The notes under the pieces were generated by a model. It saw only the letters and a program-made list of their open reading frames with translations. It was not told the origin of the DNA and searched no databases. DNA of 43,397 nucleotides from Euzebyales bacterium (GTDB taxonomy: Bacteria; Actinomycetota; Nitriliruptoria; Euzebyales; Egibacteraceae). Below, one piece after another: positions 11,000-39,677 of the stretch. Numbering within the stretch: position 1 is the first letter of the stretch; each line of letters opens with the position of its first letter. The stretch spans positions 1 through 43,397 of the forward strand of contig JACDBB010000104.1 in the NCBI GenBank assembly GCA_013695145.1, given 5' to 3'. Position numbers and translations under genes: made by a program.

Positions 11000-11041
11000 G
11001 GGCGGCTCCGGTTCTCGTTCGCAGCGACTGGTGCGGTAGGG

Positions 11042-11068
11042 GCGAGGCGGGCGAGGCGGGCGAGGCGG
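11042..11068. repeat. Three tandem 9-nt units (GCGAGGCGG)
   Basis: Three exact head-to-tail copies of GCGAGGCGG lie just upstream of the S9 peptidase start on the minus strand. They are likely simple slippage-derived sequence. Confidence 0.6.
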
Positions 11069-11072
11069 CATT

Positions 11073-11101
11073 TTGTGGCGGTCGCTGCGCGGCCGCCACA
11101 A
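11073..11101. terminator. Nine-base-pair hairpin downstream of the crotonase gene
   Basis: TTGTGGCGG at 11073-11081 pairs perfectly with CCGCCACAA at 11093-11101 around an 11-base loop. It follows the crotonase gene in its reading direction and precedes the S9 peptidase gene. There is no U-tract, so a terminator role is only plausible. Confidence 0.4.
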
Positions 11102-11132
11102 CCTCCGATTGTGAGAATCGCCTCCGCAGGCT
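11093..11132 (+). repeat. Dispersed element, left-end copy (copy 4)
   Basis: The stretch around TTGTGAGAATCGCC followed by TCCGCAGGCT matches the left end of the element at 25551-25585 (TGATGAGAATCGCC then TGTCGCAGGCT). The preceding CCAC..CC..GAT bases agree as well. No right end (CATTCACGTGTCAG) is seen downstream, so this is a partial or eroded copy in an intergenic gap. Confidence 0.5.
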
Positions 11133-11146
11133 CCGCCATCCGCCAC

Positions 11147-11839
11147 TCAGCGCAAGGCGAGCAGCGCCCGGACGTCGGCGCGCATCGACGACGACACCGC
11201 GTCGGCGCTGGCTCCCCGCAGCCGGCGCTTGGTCTCGGCGTACGCGGCGCCCGGCAGGCGCGCGAGCACGCGAGCGCGGTCGACCGCGCGGTCTCGCACG
11301 GCACCCGACGCCGCCAGCTCGTCGGCGAAGCCGACCTCGACCGCGGTCTTCGGATCCACGACCGTCCCGGGGAGGAGCAGGCCGTCGAGGCGGTCGACGC
11401 GGACGCTGCCGCGCGCGAGCGCGATGATCCAACGGGGGAGCGCGAAGCCGATGGTGGTCTCGATCAGGCCCCACTTGTAGGCGCCATCGGCTGCGACGGC
11501 GTGGTCGGCCGCCAGGCAGAGGATCGTGCCGCCCGCGACGGCATGCCCCGTGGCGGCGACCACCACCGGTCGGGGCTCCAGCCACAGCCGGAGCATCGTC
11601 TCGCCGCAGGCGACCAGCAGATCCTCCATCGCCGCCATGTCGTCGGAGCCCATGACCTTCATGTCCAAGCCTGCGGACAGCATCCCGTCGCGACCCGCGA
11701 TCACGAGCGCGGCCGCGTCGACGGCCTCTTCCAGCGCCGTGTCCAGTTCGGCGAAGAACGGCAGGCCGAACGCGTTCACCTTGCCGTCGTCGATCGTCAA
11801 CGTGACGACGCCATCGTCACGGACCGCTGTGATCACCAC
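11147..11839 (-). CDS. Enoyl-CoA hydratase/isomerase family protein (crotonase)
   Basis: A 230-residue cytoplasmic crotonase-fold protein. The first strand pair reads VVTLTIDDGKVNAFGLPFF, the oxyanion-hole segment is ALVIAGRDGMLSAGLDMK, and the second is ATGHAVAGGTILCLAAD. The canonical hydratase glutamates are not obvious in GLIETTIGFALPRWIIAL (one Glu is present), so it may be an isomerase or another CoA-ester enzyme. The GTG at 11839 is favoured because an AGGAGG stands eight bases upstream. It is slightly shorter than the usual 255-260 residues. The physiological substrate cannot be read from the sequence. Confidence 0.85.
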   Translation of the reverse strand: MVITAVRDDGVVTLTIDDGKVNAFGLPFFAELDTALEEAVDAAALVIAGRDGMLSAGLDMKVMGSDDMAAMEDLLVACGETMLRLWLEPRPVVVAATGHAVAGGTILCLAADHAVAADGAYKWGLIETTIGFALPRWIIALARGSVRVDRLDGLLLPGTVVDPKTAVEVGFADELAASGAVRDRAVDRARVLARLPGAAYAETKRRLRGASADAVSSSMRADVRALLALR

Positions 11840-11898
11840 GTCGGGGGCCTCCTGCCGCCAAGCCGCTTGGGTCACGTCAGTGTCGCAGACGCCCGCGC

Positions 11899-12366
11899 TC
11901 AGGCGATGCCGACCAGCTCCGCGACGCCGAGGATGTGGTCCTTCGCCGCCCGGCGGAGCTCGCCTCGTCGGACGCCGGGCGGCAGGTCCAGCTCGGTGTC
12001 GAGCGCGAACAGGCGGAAGAAGCAGCGGTGCGCGCCGCGCTTCTCGTCGAGGCTTGGACCGGTGTATCCCGACTCCTCGAACTCGTTGAGCCCCTGCACG
12101 AGCGAGACCGGGTCCTCGACCAGCGTGTCGGACGGCACCCCCTCCGGCAGGGACGTCTCGTCCGGCCCGATGCCGTAGACCACCCAGTGCGTCACCACGC
12201 CGGTGTCCGCGTCCGGGTCGTCGCAGACCAGCGCCAACTCCTTGGTGCCCTCGGGAACGCCCTCCCACGTCAACGGGGGCGAGGCGTCGCCGCCGTCTGC
12301 GGTGTGGCGCTCCGGGATGTCCTCGTCATGTCCGAAAGCCGGGCTGGTGAGGCGGAACGCCGCCAT
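11899..12366 (-). CDS. YbhB/YbcL family PEBP-like protein
   Basis: A 155-residue member of the phosphatidylethanolamine-binding/Raf-kinase-inhibitor-like family. It starts MAAFRLTSPAF and has the ligand-pocket motifs ASPPLTWEGVPEGTKELALV, DDPDADTGVVTHWVVYGI and HRCFFRLFALD, all in the expected order. AGGAG stands close upstream of the ATG at 12366. The bacterial function is unresolved; no secretion signal is visible, so the protein is likely cytoplasmic. It lies divergent from dps, with a 242-base gap that contains a tandem duplication. Confidence 0.92.
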   Translation of the reverse strand: MAAFRLTSPAFGHDEDIPERHTADGGDASPPLTWEGVPEGTKELALVCDDPDADTGVVTHWVVYGIGPDETSLPEGVPSDTLVEDPVSLVQGLNEFEESGYTGPSLDEKRGAHRCFFRLFALDTELDLPPGVRRGELRRAAKDHILGVAELVGIA

Positions 12367-15302: not shown

Positions 15303-15803
15303 ATGGAGGAGATCGCGAAGCCACATGAGCTGCTCGCCGCGCGGAGGTCCACGGCGGAGCTGTTCCGGCTGCTACGCGCCTGGTTCGACGTCAGCGACCA
15401 GGTGACGCTCGACCTGCGCGCCGTGGACAGCGCTGTCGAGGAGCTGGGTAACCCGCAGCTCGTCATCGCCATGGCCATGCGCAAGCTGCAGGCTCTGCAC
15501 CTACTGACCACGCCAGGGGTGCGCACGACGACCGACGTGGTGCTGACCGTCATCCAGGACCTGGAGCGCGCGCTGTTGCAGGCGCCGAACATGCACCTCA
15601 AGCAGGCCGCAGCCGCCACGGACTGGGACGCCGCGCTGGCCAGCCTGGACGAGTCCGACGGCGCCGAGGCGGAGCCTGCGGCTCAGTCCTCCGGCCTGCG
15701 CGCGGACGAGATCGCCGACTTCCGCCGCCACCACGCCGCCCTGCACGAGGCCGCCCGCGCCGTCCTCCACGTCTCCGACGGCGAGATCCGCACGCTGCGC
15801 TGA
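15303..15803 (+). CDS. Hypothetical helical protein, 166 residues
   Basis: No family recognised. Predicted mostly helical and soluble: MEEIAKPHELLAARRSTAEL, then a VIAMAMRKLQALHLLTT helix and a C-terminal HHAALHEAARAVLHVSDGEI segment. There is no signal peptide or membrane helix. The ATG at 15303 faces serB divergently. The stop TGA at 15801-15803 falls inside the first bases of dispersed element copy 1, so the original C-terminus may have been altered when the element arrived. Confidence 0.65.
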   Translation: MEEIAKPHELLAARRSTAELFRLLRAWFDVSDQVTLDLRAVDSAVEELGNPQLVIAMAMRKLQALHLLTTPGVRTTTDVVLTVIQDLERALLQAPNMHLKQAAAATDWDAALASLDESDGAEAEPAAQSSGLRADEIADFRRHHAALHEAARAVLHVSDGEIRTLR

Positions 15804-15916
15804 CACGTGAATGGCCCTGAGCGCCCAGGGGCGAGCCCCCCGGGGTCGACACCGTGTCGAGATTCCTGCGCTATGCGTGGCTGTTCCGACACAGTGTCAG
15901 ACCCGCCTGCGCCGAT
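15800..15916 (-). repeat. Dispersed palindrome-rich element, copy 1 (reverse orientation)
   Basis: Read on the minus strand, this block is about 93% identical by eye to 25589-25687. Both share a CACGCATAGCGCAGGAA core, two 15-base palindromes (here 15846-15860 and 15886-15900) and the CATTCACGTGTCAG right end, here at 15800-15813. The GC-rich stretch between core and right end carries the only indels. Similarity fades toward 15916, so the far (left) end with TGAGAATCGCC is not clearly preserved. It occupies the gap between a hypothetical gene and the threonine dehydratase gene. Confidence 0.8.
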
Positions 15917-24763: not shown

Positions 24764-25432
24764 GTGAGCGCGGCGAAAACACCGCAGGGCACCGGTGGCT
24801 CCTACGCCGGCTCCTCGCCGCGTGACCTGCTGGCGAACCGGCGGATCATCACGGACACGGTCCTGCCACCGTTGGTGTTCGTCGTGGCCGACGCGTTGGC
24901 GGGTCTGCGGTGGGCGGCCGGCGCGTCCATCGGCCTCGCGGTCATCCTGGTCGCCGGACGACTGCTGCGCCGCCAGCGGCTGCTGTACGCGGTCACCGGG
25001 CTGGGCGGTGCGCTGCTCGGGGTCTCCTTCGCGCTGTGGTCAGGAGGCGCCGAGGCGTACTTCGTCCCCGGGATCGTCTCCAGCGCAGCGCTTGGCGTTG
25101 CCTGCGTCGGCAGCATCCTCGTGCGGCGGCCACTCATCGCGCTGACCAGCGCGGCGATCTACCGCTGGCCGCTCGCGTGGTACTGGCACCCGCGGGTCCG
25201 CCCCGCGTACAGCGAGATCACCTGGGCGTGGGCCGCGCTGTACCTCGCCAAGGCGGCCGTCCAGGCCGTGCTGGTGGAGCAGCGCGCGGTCGGCGTCCTG
25301 GCCGTGGTGCGCATCGCCACCGGCTGGCCGGCGTTCGCGCTGCTGCTCGTCGGCACCTACGCCTACGTGACGTGGCGGCTCGACCGCCTGGGCGCGCCCG
25401 AGGTCGCCGAGTTCCGGGACCTGCGCGCATAG
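24764..25432 (+). CDS. DUF3159 family membrane protein
   Basis: A 222-residue integral membrane protein with about five to six hydrophobic segments. The matching pattern for this actinobacterial family includes the leading LANRRIITDTVLPPLVFVVA, a LVRRPLIALTSAAIYRWPL middle and a terminal TYAYVTWRLDRLG. GTG at 24764 has AGGAGA seven bases upstream. Family function is not known. The 218 bases between the fpg stop and this gene show no RNA gene or coding sequence that I can support. Confidence 0.85.
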   Translation: MSAAKTPQGTGGSYAGSSPRDLLANRRIITDTVLPPLVFVVADALAGLRWAAGASIGLAVILVAGRLLRRQRLLYAVTGLGGALLGVSFALWSGGAEAYFVPGIVSSAALGVACVGSILVRRPLIALTSAAIYRWPLAWYWHPRVRPAYSEITWAWAALYLAKAAVQAVLVEQRAVGVLAVVRIATGWPAFALLLVGTYAYVTWRLDRLGAPEVAEFRDLRA

Positions 25433-25459: not shown

Positions 25460-25867
25460 TCCCACGATCTCAAGGTCGTCACCCGGGTACGCCCCTCCTG
25501 GATCAAGCTCGACCGTGACCTGGTGTCAGCAGGTCATGGGAGCTGGCGCCCCCACCCCGGATGATGAGAATCGCCTGTCGCAGGCTGGTCCGACACTGTG
25601 TCGGAACAGCCACGCATAGCGCAGGAACCTCGACACGGTGTCGACCCTGGGGGCTGGCCCGGGCGCTCAGGGCCATTCACGTGTCAGGGCTCGACCACGA
25701 CGGCGCCCGGCATGCGTTCATCGAGTCCATGGTCCGCTTCGCGCGGCAGATCGGCTCGCGACTGATCGCCGAGGGCATCGAGACCGAAGGCGAGCTGGCG
25801 GCGCTGGCCACGCTCGGGGTGGTGGGGCCGGGCAGGGCTACGCCGCCTCGCGCGCGACGAGGCCGTG
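25460..25867 (+). pseudogene. EAL-domain (c-di-GMP phosphodiesterase) remnant split by a repeat element
   Basis: Two pieces of one EAL domain flank a small repeat element. The first, 25460-25529, reads LKVVTRVRPSWIKLDRDLVS, matching the IKxD motif. The second, from 25681, reads VSGLDHDGARHAFIESMVRF and then SRLIAEGIETEGELAALATL, matching the IAEGVE motif. Joining the two at the repeated GTGTCAG restores the natural ...DRDLVSGLDHD... order. A further frameshift near 25830 separates the terminal QGYAASRATRP. The upstream EAL glutamate region is missing. The gene is inactive as it stands. Confidence 0.8.
25530..25687 (+). repeat. Dispersed palindrome-rich element, copy 2 (full length, inserted in the EAL gene)
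   Basis: About 151 bases lie between GTGTCAG at 25523-25529 and GTGTCAG at 25681-25687. The left part has TGAGAATCGCC at 25565-25575 and a GCCTG/CAGGC mini-hairpin. The middle carries two perfect palindromes, CCGACACTGTGTCGG (25590-25604) and TCGACACGGTGTCGA (25630-25644), centres 40 bp apart. The right end is GGCCATTCAC. The two ends form an imperfect inverted repeat (GAGAATCGCC versus GTGAATGGCC, eight of ten). No protein is encoded. Confidence 0.85.
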
Positions 25868-26069
25868 ACGGTCGCCTTCTACGACTTCGAGGGCTTCCGT
25901 CCGTTCAACGACCTCGGCGGCTTCGCCTTCGGCGACGAGGTGCTCAGGGCGATCGCTCGCTGCCTCGCCGGTGTGACCGCGGGGGTGCTCGACGCCGAGG
26001 TCGCCCACCTGGGAGCGGACGACTTCGTCCTGCTGGTCCCACCACGCGGGTTCTCCGAGCTGCTTAGTC
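25865..26069 (+). pseudogene. GGDEF-like (diguanylate cyclase) domain remnant
   Basis: The plus strand reads VTVAFYDFEGFRPFNDLGGF, then AFGDEVLRAIARCL and LGADDFVLLVP. This matches the central part of GGDEF domains of the 'D-x-D-x-FKPFND-x-YGF-x-RGDEVI' kind, with GADDF in place of GG(D/E)EF. The similarity breaks near 26069, where the continuing sequence is in another frame. It sits directly after the EAL remnant in a different frame, with nothing between, so one EAL-GGDEF gene has lost material and frames. Confidence 0.6.
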
Positions 26070-26428: not shown

Positions 26429-27010
26429 CTAGATGCCGCCGCGGTTGCGAACCTCATCGATGATCCCGTACTCGACCGCCTGGTCGGAGGACAGCCAGAA
26501 GTCGCGGTCGGTGTCCTTGGAGATCTGCTCGACCGACTTGCCCGTGCGCTCCGCCAGGACCTCGTTGAGCCGGTGGCGCAGGAACACGATCTGCTCCGCC
26601 TGGATCTGGATGTCGGAGGCCTGACCCCGCGCGCCGCCCAGCGGCTGGTGCAGCATGATCCGGGCGTTGGGCGTCGCCGCGCGCGTGCCGGTCCCTGTGG
26701 CGAGGATCACGGCCGCGGCGGAGGCCGCCATGCCGACGCAGACGGTGTGCACCTTCGACCGCATCAGCTGCATGACGTCGTAGATCGCGAACAGCCCGTG
26801 GATGACGCCGCCCGGAGAGTTGATGTACAGCGACACGTCCTCGTTAGAGTCGGCGTCGAGCGACATGAGCTGCGCGACGACCGTGTCGGCCATCGTGTCC
26901 TCGATCGGGCCGCGCAGGTACAGCACCCGCTTCTCGTACAGCGTCTTGAAGACGTTGGACTCGACGAGCCGCTCGAAGGGGCTCTCCTCGGCCATGCGCG
27001 CTGGTGCCAC
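26429..27010 (-). CDS. clpP: ATP-dependent Clp protease proteolytic subunit
   Basis: A 193-residue ClpP. The catalytic triad is Ser97 (GMAASAAAVILATG), His121 (ARIMLHQPLGG) and Asp170 (DTDRDFWLSSDQAVEYG). The oligomerisation handle helix and the YINSPGGVIHGLFAIYDVMQ oxyanion strand are present, so it should form active heptameric rings that need ClpX or ClpC. GTG at 27010 has AAGG nine bases upstream; ATG at 26995 is the alternative. No tig lies upstream and no clpX downstream, unlike the usual order. Downstream is decayed DNA, so this is a solitary copy and may be a paralogue. Confidence 0.93.
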   Translation of the reverse strand: MAPARMAEESPFERLVESNVFKTLYEKRVLYLRGPIEDTMADTVVAQLMSLDADSNEDVSLYINSPGGVIHGLFAIYDVMQLMRSKVHTVCVGMAASAAAVILATGTGTRAATPNARIMLHQPLGGARGQASDIQIQAEQIVFLRHRLNEVLAERTGKSVEQISKDTDRDFWLSSDQAVEYGIIDEVRNRGGI

Positions 27011-37801: not shown

Positions 37802-39199
37802 TCAGGCCGGAGCGGTGGCGTTGGTGGCCGTGAGGAACGCGGCGGCCTTGTCCAACGCCTCCGCGTGCTCGGCGGCGGGGTCGGAGTCGGCGACGATGCC
37901 GCCGCCGGCGCCGTAGGAGGCGACCCCAGCGGCGACGACCGCGGTGCGGATCGCCACCGACAGGTCAACCAGCCCCCTGGTGACGACGCCGATCGCGCCG
38001 CAGTAGACCCCGCGGCGGATCGGTTCGAGATCGCGGATGCGCGACCAGGCCATGCGCTTGGGCGCGCCGGTGACCGAACCCGGCGGGAACGTGGCCGCGA
38101 GCAGGTCGTCCAGGCCGACCTCGGGACGCAGCCGCCCGCGCACGGTCGACGTCAGGTGCCACACCGTGGGGTGGGCCTCCAGCGCGGCCAGCTCAGGGAC
38201 GCGCACCGTCCCCGTGACGCACACCCGGCCCAGGTCGTTGCGGGCGAGGTCCACGATCATGATGTGCTCGGCCGCGTCCTTGGCGCTGGCCTGCAGCGCC
38301 GCCGCCTCGGCGCGGTCGGCGGCCGGATCGGCCATCCTCGGTCGTGTGCCCTTGATGGGGCGGGTGACGACCTGGTCGGCGTCAGTCGCCAGGAACGTCT
38401 CCGGCGACACCGACACGACCTCGGCGTCGCCCGCCCTGAGCCAGGCGGCGTGCGGGGCGCCGGGCGATGCGGCCCACAGGCGCCGCGCGAGCGCCGCGCC
38501 GCCGTGCGGCCAGTCCACGGCCAGCTGCAGCGTCAGGTTGAGCTGATAGAGGTCGCCCGCGGCGATCATCGCTTGGGCCGCAGCGACCGCCGCGCGGTGC
38601 GCCGCCGCGCCGAGTGACGGCGTCGCGTGCCGCCGGCGCGGCGCCAGCGCGTCGCTCGCGTCGCCCGACCCGCCCAGCGTCTGCGGGCGGTGCTGCGCAC
38701 CGCCACCCCCGAGAGTGTGAGAATCGCCCTCGCGAGCTCGGGCGCATTCACGTGTCAGGGCCGCCACCCGCGCCTCCCAGCGCGCGGCCCTGACGGCCGC
38801 GGGCTCCCGAGTCCAGCCCGGCACGTCCGCGGCCACCACCTGCAACCGTCCCGCGGGGTCCTGGCACAGCGCGGTGTCATACACCCCGAACCGCACGGGC
38901 GCCAGCGGCGCCGGTGCCGGCCGCCGGTCGGCGACGGCGAGCTCGAGCAGCCCGGGTGAGACGTCATCGGTGATGAAACCGATGGCGCCGCCTGCGAACG
39001 GCGGACCGTCCGGGTCCCGCTCCTCACGCCAGCCGCACGCGTCGGCCACCGCGGCGAGCGCGCGCAGATTCCAGACCGCGCCGAGGGGATCGACGCCGAA
39101 GACCTGCCAGCCGCGGACCGCGACCGCGGCCCCCTCGTCGCCGGCCGCGAGGCGGAGCAGCTCGGCGGCGGGAGCGGCGGTGCGGTGCGGTGCGGTCAC
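37802..39199 (-). CDS. pabB: Aminodeoxychorismate synthase component I / chorismate-binding enzyme
   Basis: A 465-residue enzyme that aminates chorismate, probably toward p-aminobenzoate. The chorismate-binding domain shows VVTRPIKGTRPRM, HIMIVDLARNDLGRV and FPPGSVTGAPKRMAWSRI, followed by YGAGGGIVADSDPAAEHAE. KGT fits PabB and most group members; anthranilate synthase is not excluded. The N-terminal half is short. The linker between the halves (ECARAREGDSHTLGGGG) is encoded by a copy of the dispersed element, inserted in frame. GTG at 39199 overlaps the stop of the upstream small gene, fixing the start. Confidence 0.88.
   Translation of the reverse strand: MTAPHRTAAPAAELLRLAAGDEGAAVAVRGWQVFGVDPLGAVWNLRALAAVADACGWREERDPDGPPFAGGAIGFITDDVSPGLLELAVADRRPAPAPLAPVRFGVYDTALCQDPAGRLQVVAADVPGWTREPAAVRAARWEARVAALTRECARAREGDSHTLGGGGAQHRPQTLGGSGDASDALAPRRRHATPSLGAAAHRAAVAAAQAMIAAGDLYQLNLTLQLAVDWPHGGAALARRLWAASPGAPHAAWLRAGDAEVVSVSPETFLATDADQVVTRPIKGTRPRMADPAADRAEAAALQASAKDAAEHIMIVDLARNDLGRVCVTGTVRVPELAALEAHPTVWHLTSTVRGRLRPEVGLDDLLAATFPPGSVTGAPKRMAWSRIRDLEPIRRGVYCGAIGVVTRGLVDLSVAIRTAVVAAGVASYGAGGGIVADSDPAAEHAEALDKAAAFLTATNATAPA
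38705..38758 (+). repeat. Dispersed element, short palindromic copy (copy 3) inside pabB
   Basis: GTGTGAGAATCGCC at 38715-38728 and GCATTCACGTGTCAG at 38744-38758 match the left and right ends of the element at 25530-25687, but only 15 bases lie between. The ends pair as a near-perfect hairpin (GAATCGCCC with GGGCGCATTC). The copy lies in a tolerant linker of PabB and keeps the frame open. Confidence 0.65.
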
Positions 39200-39435
39200 G
39201 CCGATGACGGTACGCCGTACTTTCGTCGGAAGTCCGCGTCGCCCATCTCGTCGAGGTCGAGGGCGAGCGCGGCCTCGAACTCGGCGGCCTGCTCGGAATC
39301 GGTGAACGTCTGCGCCCACATGAGGTTGCCGGTCGCCGCCGCCTGCAGCTGAACGTCGTACATGGTGCCGCCGTCGTAGCCGCCGCGGGTGCGGGTCAGG
39401 ACGCGGAACGCGCGCCGCGCGGGAGTGTCGGTCAC
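39196..39435 (-). CDS. Hypothetical protein, 79 residues
   Basis: A small soluble protein with no recognised family. From GTG at 39435 (AGGTG eight bases upstream) it reads VTDTPARRAFRVLTRTRGGY, then YDVQLQAAATGNLMWAQTF and a helical end EFEAALALDLDEMGDADFRR. An ATG at 39462 would add nine residues. The stop overlaps the pabB GTG, so the two are coupled. The 242 bases upstream to the dnaE2 stop hold no supported gene. Confidence 0.6.
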   Translation of the reverse strand: MTDTPARRAFRVLTRTRGGYDGGTMYDVQLQAAATGNLMWAQTFTDSEQAAEFEAALALDLDEMGDADFRRKYGVPSSA

Positions 39436-39677
39436 GTGGGCAGCACCTAGCATCGTGGTCAAGGGGGAGCACGGTTGGCGTTGCTCTGTCGTGCGGCGCG
39501 GTGGGGGCCACGACCGTCGAGGGAGTGCGACGCGGACTGGCGGGCCCGCGACGGTACTCCAGAGTCCGGCGGGCGCGCAACGCCGTCGGTGCCGCCCGCC
39601 GCCCTAAAGCGACTGTCTGTCCCTTGCAGGCGCTGCGCATGGTCGCCGCCCGCGACGATGCTGCAGTGGCCGGCTGG

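Follow-up and report, generated by a model that had tools for sequence, protein, structure and literature searches.

A coding sequence for an EAL domain in the genome of a Euzebyales bacterium (Actinomycetota; assembly GCA_013695145.1) is interrupted by a block of DNA with the heptamer GTGTCAG at both borders. What is this block, did it enter the gene by insertion, and does the heptamer represent a duplicated target or an end of the block itself? We approached these questions through the 43,397-nt stretch of contig JACDBB010000104.1 that holds the locus (positions 1–43397; hereafter, the window), the rest of the same genome (G000), and the genomes of relatives.

The interrupted EAL gene

The heptamer is exact at both borders (25523–25529 and 25681–25687), as stated in the preliminary description of the locus, and occurs 6 times on the plus strand of the 43.4-kb window, so that a pair exactly bounding one repeat unit is not attributable to chance. 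Excision of 25530–25687 (158 nt) leaves GAC CTG GTG TCA GGG CTC GAC, which reads D-L-V-S-G-L-D in a single frame; the rejoining of DRDLVS to GLDHD, which that description had also claimed, is thus borne out, and the rejoined peptide matches the EAL profile (PF00563, E = 2.2e-13, profile positions 164–225). Uninterrupted homologs of the rejoined peptide are encoded in 4 relatives (G003, G004, G010, and G019) by ORFs of 756–1037 aa. In all 4, the EAL gene adjoins clpP (26429–27010 in the window, minus strand; profile match and synteny), and in G004 the DUF3159 gene (24764–25432 in the window, plus strand; profile match and comparison with G004) lies on the opposite side.

Ortholog alignment delimits the left part of the interrupted domain (DLKVVTRVRPSWIKLDRDLVS; 25466–25529, plus strand) and, together with PF00563, the right part (GLDHDGARHAFIESMVRFARQIGSRLIAEGIETEGEL...; 25688–25840, plus strand). 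When the 2 flanks are joined, the alignment with the 4 orthologs is gap-free at the join, where the window reads GTGTCAGGGCTC and the orthologs read ATCGCCGGGGTC, ATCAGCTCCGTG, GTCACCGCCGTG, and GTGACCGGTGTA. Because this alignment to uninterrupted, syntenic orthologs is gap-free, the GTG before the left TCAG is read as an ordinary EAL valine codon and the block as an insertion; the comparison indicates that the block is a real insertion into the EAL coding sequence, as originally proposed. The outcome that had been named against this proposal, namely that relatives carry the block as ancestral sequence, was not seen in any of the 4 relatives checked, all of which lack it.

The host gene is decayed in other respects as well and is a pseudogene. 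DUF3159 and the EAL site are ~2.1 kb apart in G004 versus 0.1 kb in the window, which implies that ~2 kb of 5′ sequence has been lost from the EAL gene. A 2-nt frameshift lies downstream, and a GGDEF-like remnant (25858–26065, plus strand; PF00990, E = 1.8e-8) is present in another frame of the same decayed region.

A high-copy family of hairpin repeats

The block comprises a unit body of the long type (CAGGTCATGGGAGC...CATTCACGTG; 25530–25683, plus strand), with the palindrome CCGACACTGTGTCGG and the related TCGACACGGTGTCGA, followed by a TCAG (25684–25687, plus strand), a fixed element end whose gene-strand reading, CTGA, coincides with the stop of the neighboring gene in most other copies. 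BLAST comparison of the block with its own genome returned 71 matches, the best being ~94% identical over the whole length, and identity to ~40 other copies ranges from 80% to 98% over most or part of the length. The right end, CATTCACGTGTCAG, is found at 89 places in the genome when 1 mismatch is allowed, and the reversed-pattern control gave 0.

The short unit has ~83 nt between TCAGs and folds into 2 hairpins; 128 of the 130 aligned units span 79–89 nt including the TCAGs. In the long unit (~160 nt), represented by the window block, an extra palindrome-rich segment replaces the loop of the second hairpin. Hybrids that combine the first hairpin of the short type with the insert of the long type were also seen, as was a composite form of ~290 nt. 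Units are either solitary or arranged head to tail in arrays, in which neighbors share a single TCAG.

An alignment of 40 short units has a mean column identity of 83%, and the two-hairpin structure pairs 94% of its cells, against 29%–36% in slid controls. Double changes occur at 2 hairpin pairs (13 sequences each), a covariation that may stem largely from 2 subfamilies and thus from few independent events. Folded as a single strand, the window copy gave modest z-scores (−1.9 and −2.1).

A covariance model was built on the short (~83 nt) form, and, with 150 candidates scored per genome, its counts for the 3 richest genomes are lower bounds: at least 149 copies in the window genome, at least 122 in G002, and at least 115 in G010. 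At least 33 copies were found in G003 and 5 in G019; elsewhere in the bacterial family, there were 2 or fewer weak matches. G002, G010, and G003 represent 3 genera other than that of the window genome. G010 and G019 belong to the same genus, with at least 115 copies in the former versus 5 in the latter, and this congeneric contrast (>100 versus 5) makes empty and occupied sites directly comparable. The 2 genomes form a natural pair for dating the element and for finding the enzyme that mobilizes it. Many arrays are situated at contig ends (examples among the short contigs and contig ends are C29, C32, C78, C143, C174, C210, and C212); the repeats probably break the assembly, so that copy counts would be low estimates.

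The window contained 0 Rfam matches at or above the gathering score. An exact scan of public genomes with the 17-base right end returned 11 scattered single matches in unrelated phyla, which is about the number expected by chance, and these were rejected as relatives of the element. Long-query DNA matches in G010 and G011 (L062 and L063) were short and weak and were set aside. The element was also considered as a coding sequence: 66 of 130 units have an in-frame GTG 3 nt downstream of the TGA, and in 21 of these 66, the far TGA is the exact end of the resulting ORF; the internal ORF is not conserved, and the coding interpretation was rejected.

The flank shared among copies

TCAG is the left 4-mer in 85 of the 130 units and the right 4-mer in 92. 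The left edges of solitary copies have only TCAG in common, the preceding bases being variable, and TCAG also flanks a divergent copy from another genus (G002). GTGTCAG closes not only the window block but, as noted previously, also the copies at 15800–15911 (minus strand) and 38674–38758, and it forms a nearly invariant right end at ~90 genomic positions. Because the heptamer closes most copies while left flanks share TCAG only, the shared flank is TCAG and not the 7-mer. The 7-bp match in the window is the left TCAG (25526–25529, plus strand), which is the shared 4-bp flank, plus the EAL-codon GTG (25523–25525) that the element end happens to share; at this single site, the GTG may be more than coincidence.

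These comparisons give no support to the reading of the heptamer as a 7-bp target duplication. The alternative offered in the preliminary description, a fixed element end or sequence-specific insertion, fits better, the common target being TCAG, or CTGA on the gene strand, and usually a TGA stop. What held of the heptamer is its TCAG portion, common to left edges family-wide; the preceding GTG differs from site to site. A short direct repeat beside one copy therefore need not be a target duplication.

A transposon-like MITE, whose transposase duplicated an arbitrary 7-bp target that here happened to be GTGTCAG, would account for the exact 7-bp direct repeat around the insert and for the restoration of the frame when one copy is removed. 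The family does resemble bacterial MITEs in being short, non-autonomous, dispersed, and flanked by a short direct repeat. We nevertheless regard this explanation as very improbable, since GTGTCAG closes most other copies and their left flanks share only TCAG; moreover, the consensus ends, unlike those of MITEs, are not reverse complements and show no terminal inverted repeats, and the flank is nearly always TCAG. A longer duplication of the form NNTCAG, suggested by the variation among copies in the 2 bases that precede the right TCAG, was rejected as well: in solitary copies, the bases before the left and right TCAGs agree no more often than in shuffles (position −1, p = 0.07; position −2, p = 0.38). 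Among the right ends in A2–A4, the 2 bases between CACG and TCAG are far more variable than their neighbors and differ from the left flank.

The left GTGTCAG might instead be the remnant end of a preceding array unit that was deleted, and many other long units are indeed preceded by a GTGTCAG that ends the unit before them. At the EAL site, however, the sequence preceding the heptamer (GACCGTGACCTG) consists of EAL codons in gap-free alignment with the 4 orthologs, which refutes the remnant reading here and leaves it with hardly any credibility.

Copies at the stop codons of genes

On the opposite strand, TCAG reads CTGA. Of 63 right edges, 41 supply, with the TGA of the element, the in-frame stop of an opposite-strand frame that is 100 codons or longer. 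The frame ending there exceeds the others in length in 38 of 54 clear cases (expected 1/3, p = 3e-8), the test being based on open frames rather than gene-caller output. A separate set of covariance-model matches from 3 genomes repeats the result (42/67, p = 8e-7). About one third of right edges are without a long frame ending at the TGA, many of them at contig ends or beside short ORFs. Ten proteins that end at the element belong to known families, and most of their domains reach near the protein end; they include a succinate dehydrogenase-like iron–sulphur protein, SPFH, a LigD-like ligase, a member of the phosphoglucomutase family, GlpX, a member of the amine oxidase family, a branched-chain permease, AdoHcyase, and an aldo/keto reductase. 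Beyond the far edges lie closely spaced genes of the same or convergent direction, and at 16 of 32 classified sites, a same-direction ORF starts within 120 nt of the far edge.

Two other copies in the window are placed in this manner. The right-end TCAG of a short-type copy (11065–11150, plus strand) forms the TGA stop of an enoyl-CoA hydratase-like gene (11147–12268, minus strand), which is followed at this copy by an S9 peptidase gene in the same direction. Likewise, the right-end TCAG of a left-truncated, long-type copy (15800–15911, minus strand) is the TGA stop of an ORF on the plus strand (15303–15803). A run of GGCGAGGCGGGCGAGGCGG repeats occupies 11040–11070, immediately before the short-type copy at 11065.

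Occupied sites in G010 were compared with empty sites in G019 at genes that, judged from their sequences, we take to be nadA, aroE, ruvA, and dnaJ. The position of the stop codon is identical in nadA, aroE, and ruvA and shifted by one codon in dnaJ; these same-genus sites are ~75%–86% identical over the aligned gene ends, a divergence at which the exact insertion base is not resolvable. The nadA site has one TCAG in the empty G019 and 2 in the occupied G010, the single-to-double pattern of a flanking repeat that characterizes MITEs. The ruvA and ruvB genes directly overlap in G019 and are separated by an array in G010.

Placement of this kind could also be expected of functional 3′-end parts, such as terminators, mRNA stabilizers, or translational couplers, that are kept by selection and spread by recombination rather than by targeted insertion. 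The location of sites at the 3′ ends of genes, frequently in narrow gaps between same-direction or convergent genes, the hairpins, and the in-frame GTG that about half of the units have 3 nt downstream of the TGA are all compatible with such a role. Against it, the units are embedded in stop codons with single-base precision, and a second TCAG stands at the far side, which requires no stop; some copies are found within genes (the EAL copy and a copy in a pabB-like gene); and the small ORF is not conserved, with an exact end at the far TGA in the minority of units given above (21/66). The rise in copy number from 5 to >100 between congeners resembles the dynamics of mobile elements. On balance, we consider selection for a 3′-end function unlikely as the explanation for the family, although it deserves more weight than the other rival readings.

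Candidate enzymes and a proposed mechanism

Since no transposase or autonomous copy was found, we infer mobility of the element from its distribution and from the empty sites. Were the family of REP/REPIN type, a Y1 (RAYT/IS200) transposase would mobilize its hairpins in single-stranded form, and TCAG would serve as the tetranucleotide tag. Several properties of the family fit this reading: extragenic hairpins, a conserved tetranucleotide at the edge, high copy number, and mosaic tandem arrays similar to those of REPs and BIMEs (PMC8266576) and of REPINs with RAYT (TnpA-REP). REPs are defined by a GTAG tag and a Y1 enzyme (PMC8266576, PMC3733652). Y1_Tnp (PF01797) had no match in the window genome, which is 94% complete, although 5 of the 14 genomes in the control gave a match. 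The family has TCAG on each side instead of GTAG (or CGTC) at one foot, with consensus ends TCAGCATCTCATG and ATTCACGTGTCAG, and the unit has ~83 nt with 2 different hairpins in fixed order, compared with a palindrome of 20–50 nt. These differences make a REP/REPIN origin improbable.

Two other enzyme families were rejected as mobilizers. The IS110 transposase (PF01548) is absent from the element-rich G000 and G010 and present in several element-poor genomes. Reverse transcriptase has 3 matches in the window genome (C122:3973–4473, C235:2892–3275, and C68:26282–26599), at least 1 of them with an internal stop; it is also present in element-poor relatives and has no link to the element. Thus, no parental insertion sequence was found among the families searched (Y1, IS110, and reverse transcriptase).

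Taken together, the EAL block is likely to be a non-autonomous, hairpin-forming interspersed repeat inserted at TCAG/CTGA, usually at the stop codons of genes. A putative enzyme would insert the unit at CTGA and leave CTGA on both sides, whereby the host gene would retain its stop and the insertion would be nearly neutral. Tandem arrays could be built by reinsertion at the shared TCAG or by slippage. Copies inside genes would normally be purged, with survivors confined to pseudogenes or tolerant linkers; the window copy may have survived since the EAL–GGDEF gene was already decaying, or it may itself have started the decay. More tentatively, the family could represent an undescribed class of mobile DNA in which a putative enzyme recognizes stop sites (CTGA in a 3′-end context) and makes harmless insertions at gene ends in several genera of actinobacterial type, a possibility that we raise with considerable reservation.

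Relationship to known repeats

We found no description of the family in the literature, as covered by open-licence papers. The closest known kind are the mycobacterial interspersed repetitive units (MIRUs), and, compared by description rather than by sequence, the new family works like them. Both consist of units of 40–100 bp (a size range that includes the short unit), occur as solitary copies and tandem arrays, occupy tight gene junctions including operons (for example, ruvA–ruvB in G010), are placed at translation signals while leaving neighbors intact, and are apparently mobile. MIRUs (Supply et al. 1997, as described in PMC12548453, PMC2734929, and PMC4213456) reportedly insert at start codons, together with a coupled ORF (PMC12548453), whereas the family described here is anchored on the TGA of the upstream gene within TCAG/CTGA, includes composite long forms, and lacks a consistently retained internal ORF. 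The M. tuberculosis complex has intergenic MIRU arrays, which other species lack where their rnc and fpg genes are almost adjacent (PMC2734929).

The family provides a second lineage, spanning several genera and with >100 copies in each of 3 genomes, in which small repeats are nested exactly at stop codons, much as MIRUs are at translation junctions. How repeats of this kind move, and why they are placed at stop or start codons, becomes testable through G010 and G019.

Rickettsia palindromic elements are in-frame coding insertions (PMC3733652), and one further copy in the window resembles them. This short-type copy of 85 nt (38674–38758, plus strand), with CCAG on its far side, lies in open frame inside a pabB-like gene (37802–39640, minus strand), unlike most copies of the family, which are at stop codons outside coding sequence. 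It forms an in-frame insertion of ~27 residues that separates the chorismate-binding core of the pabB-like protein from its N-terminal part.
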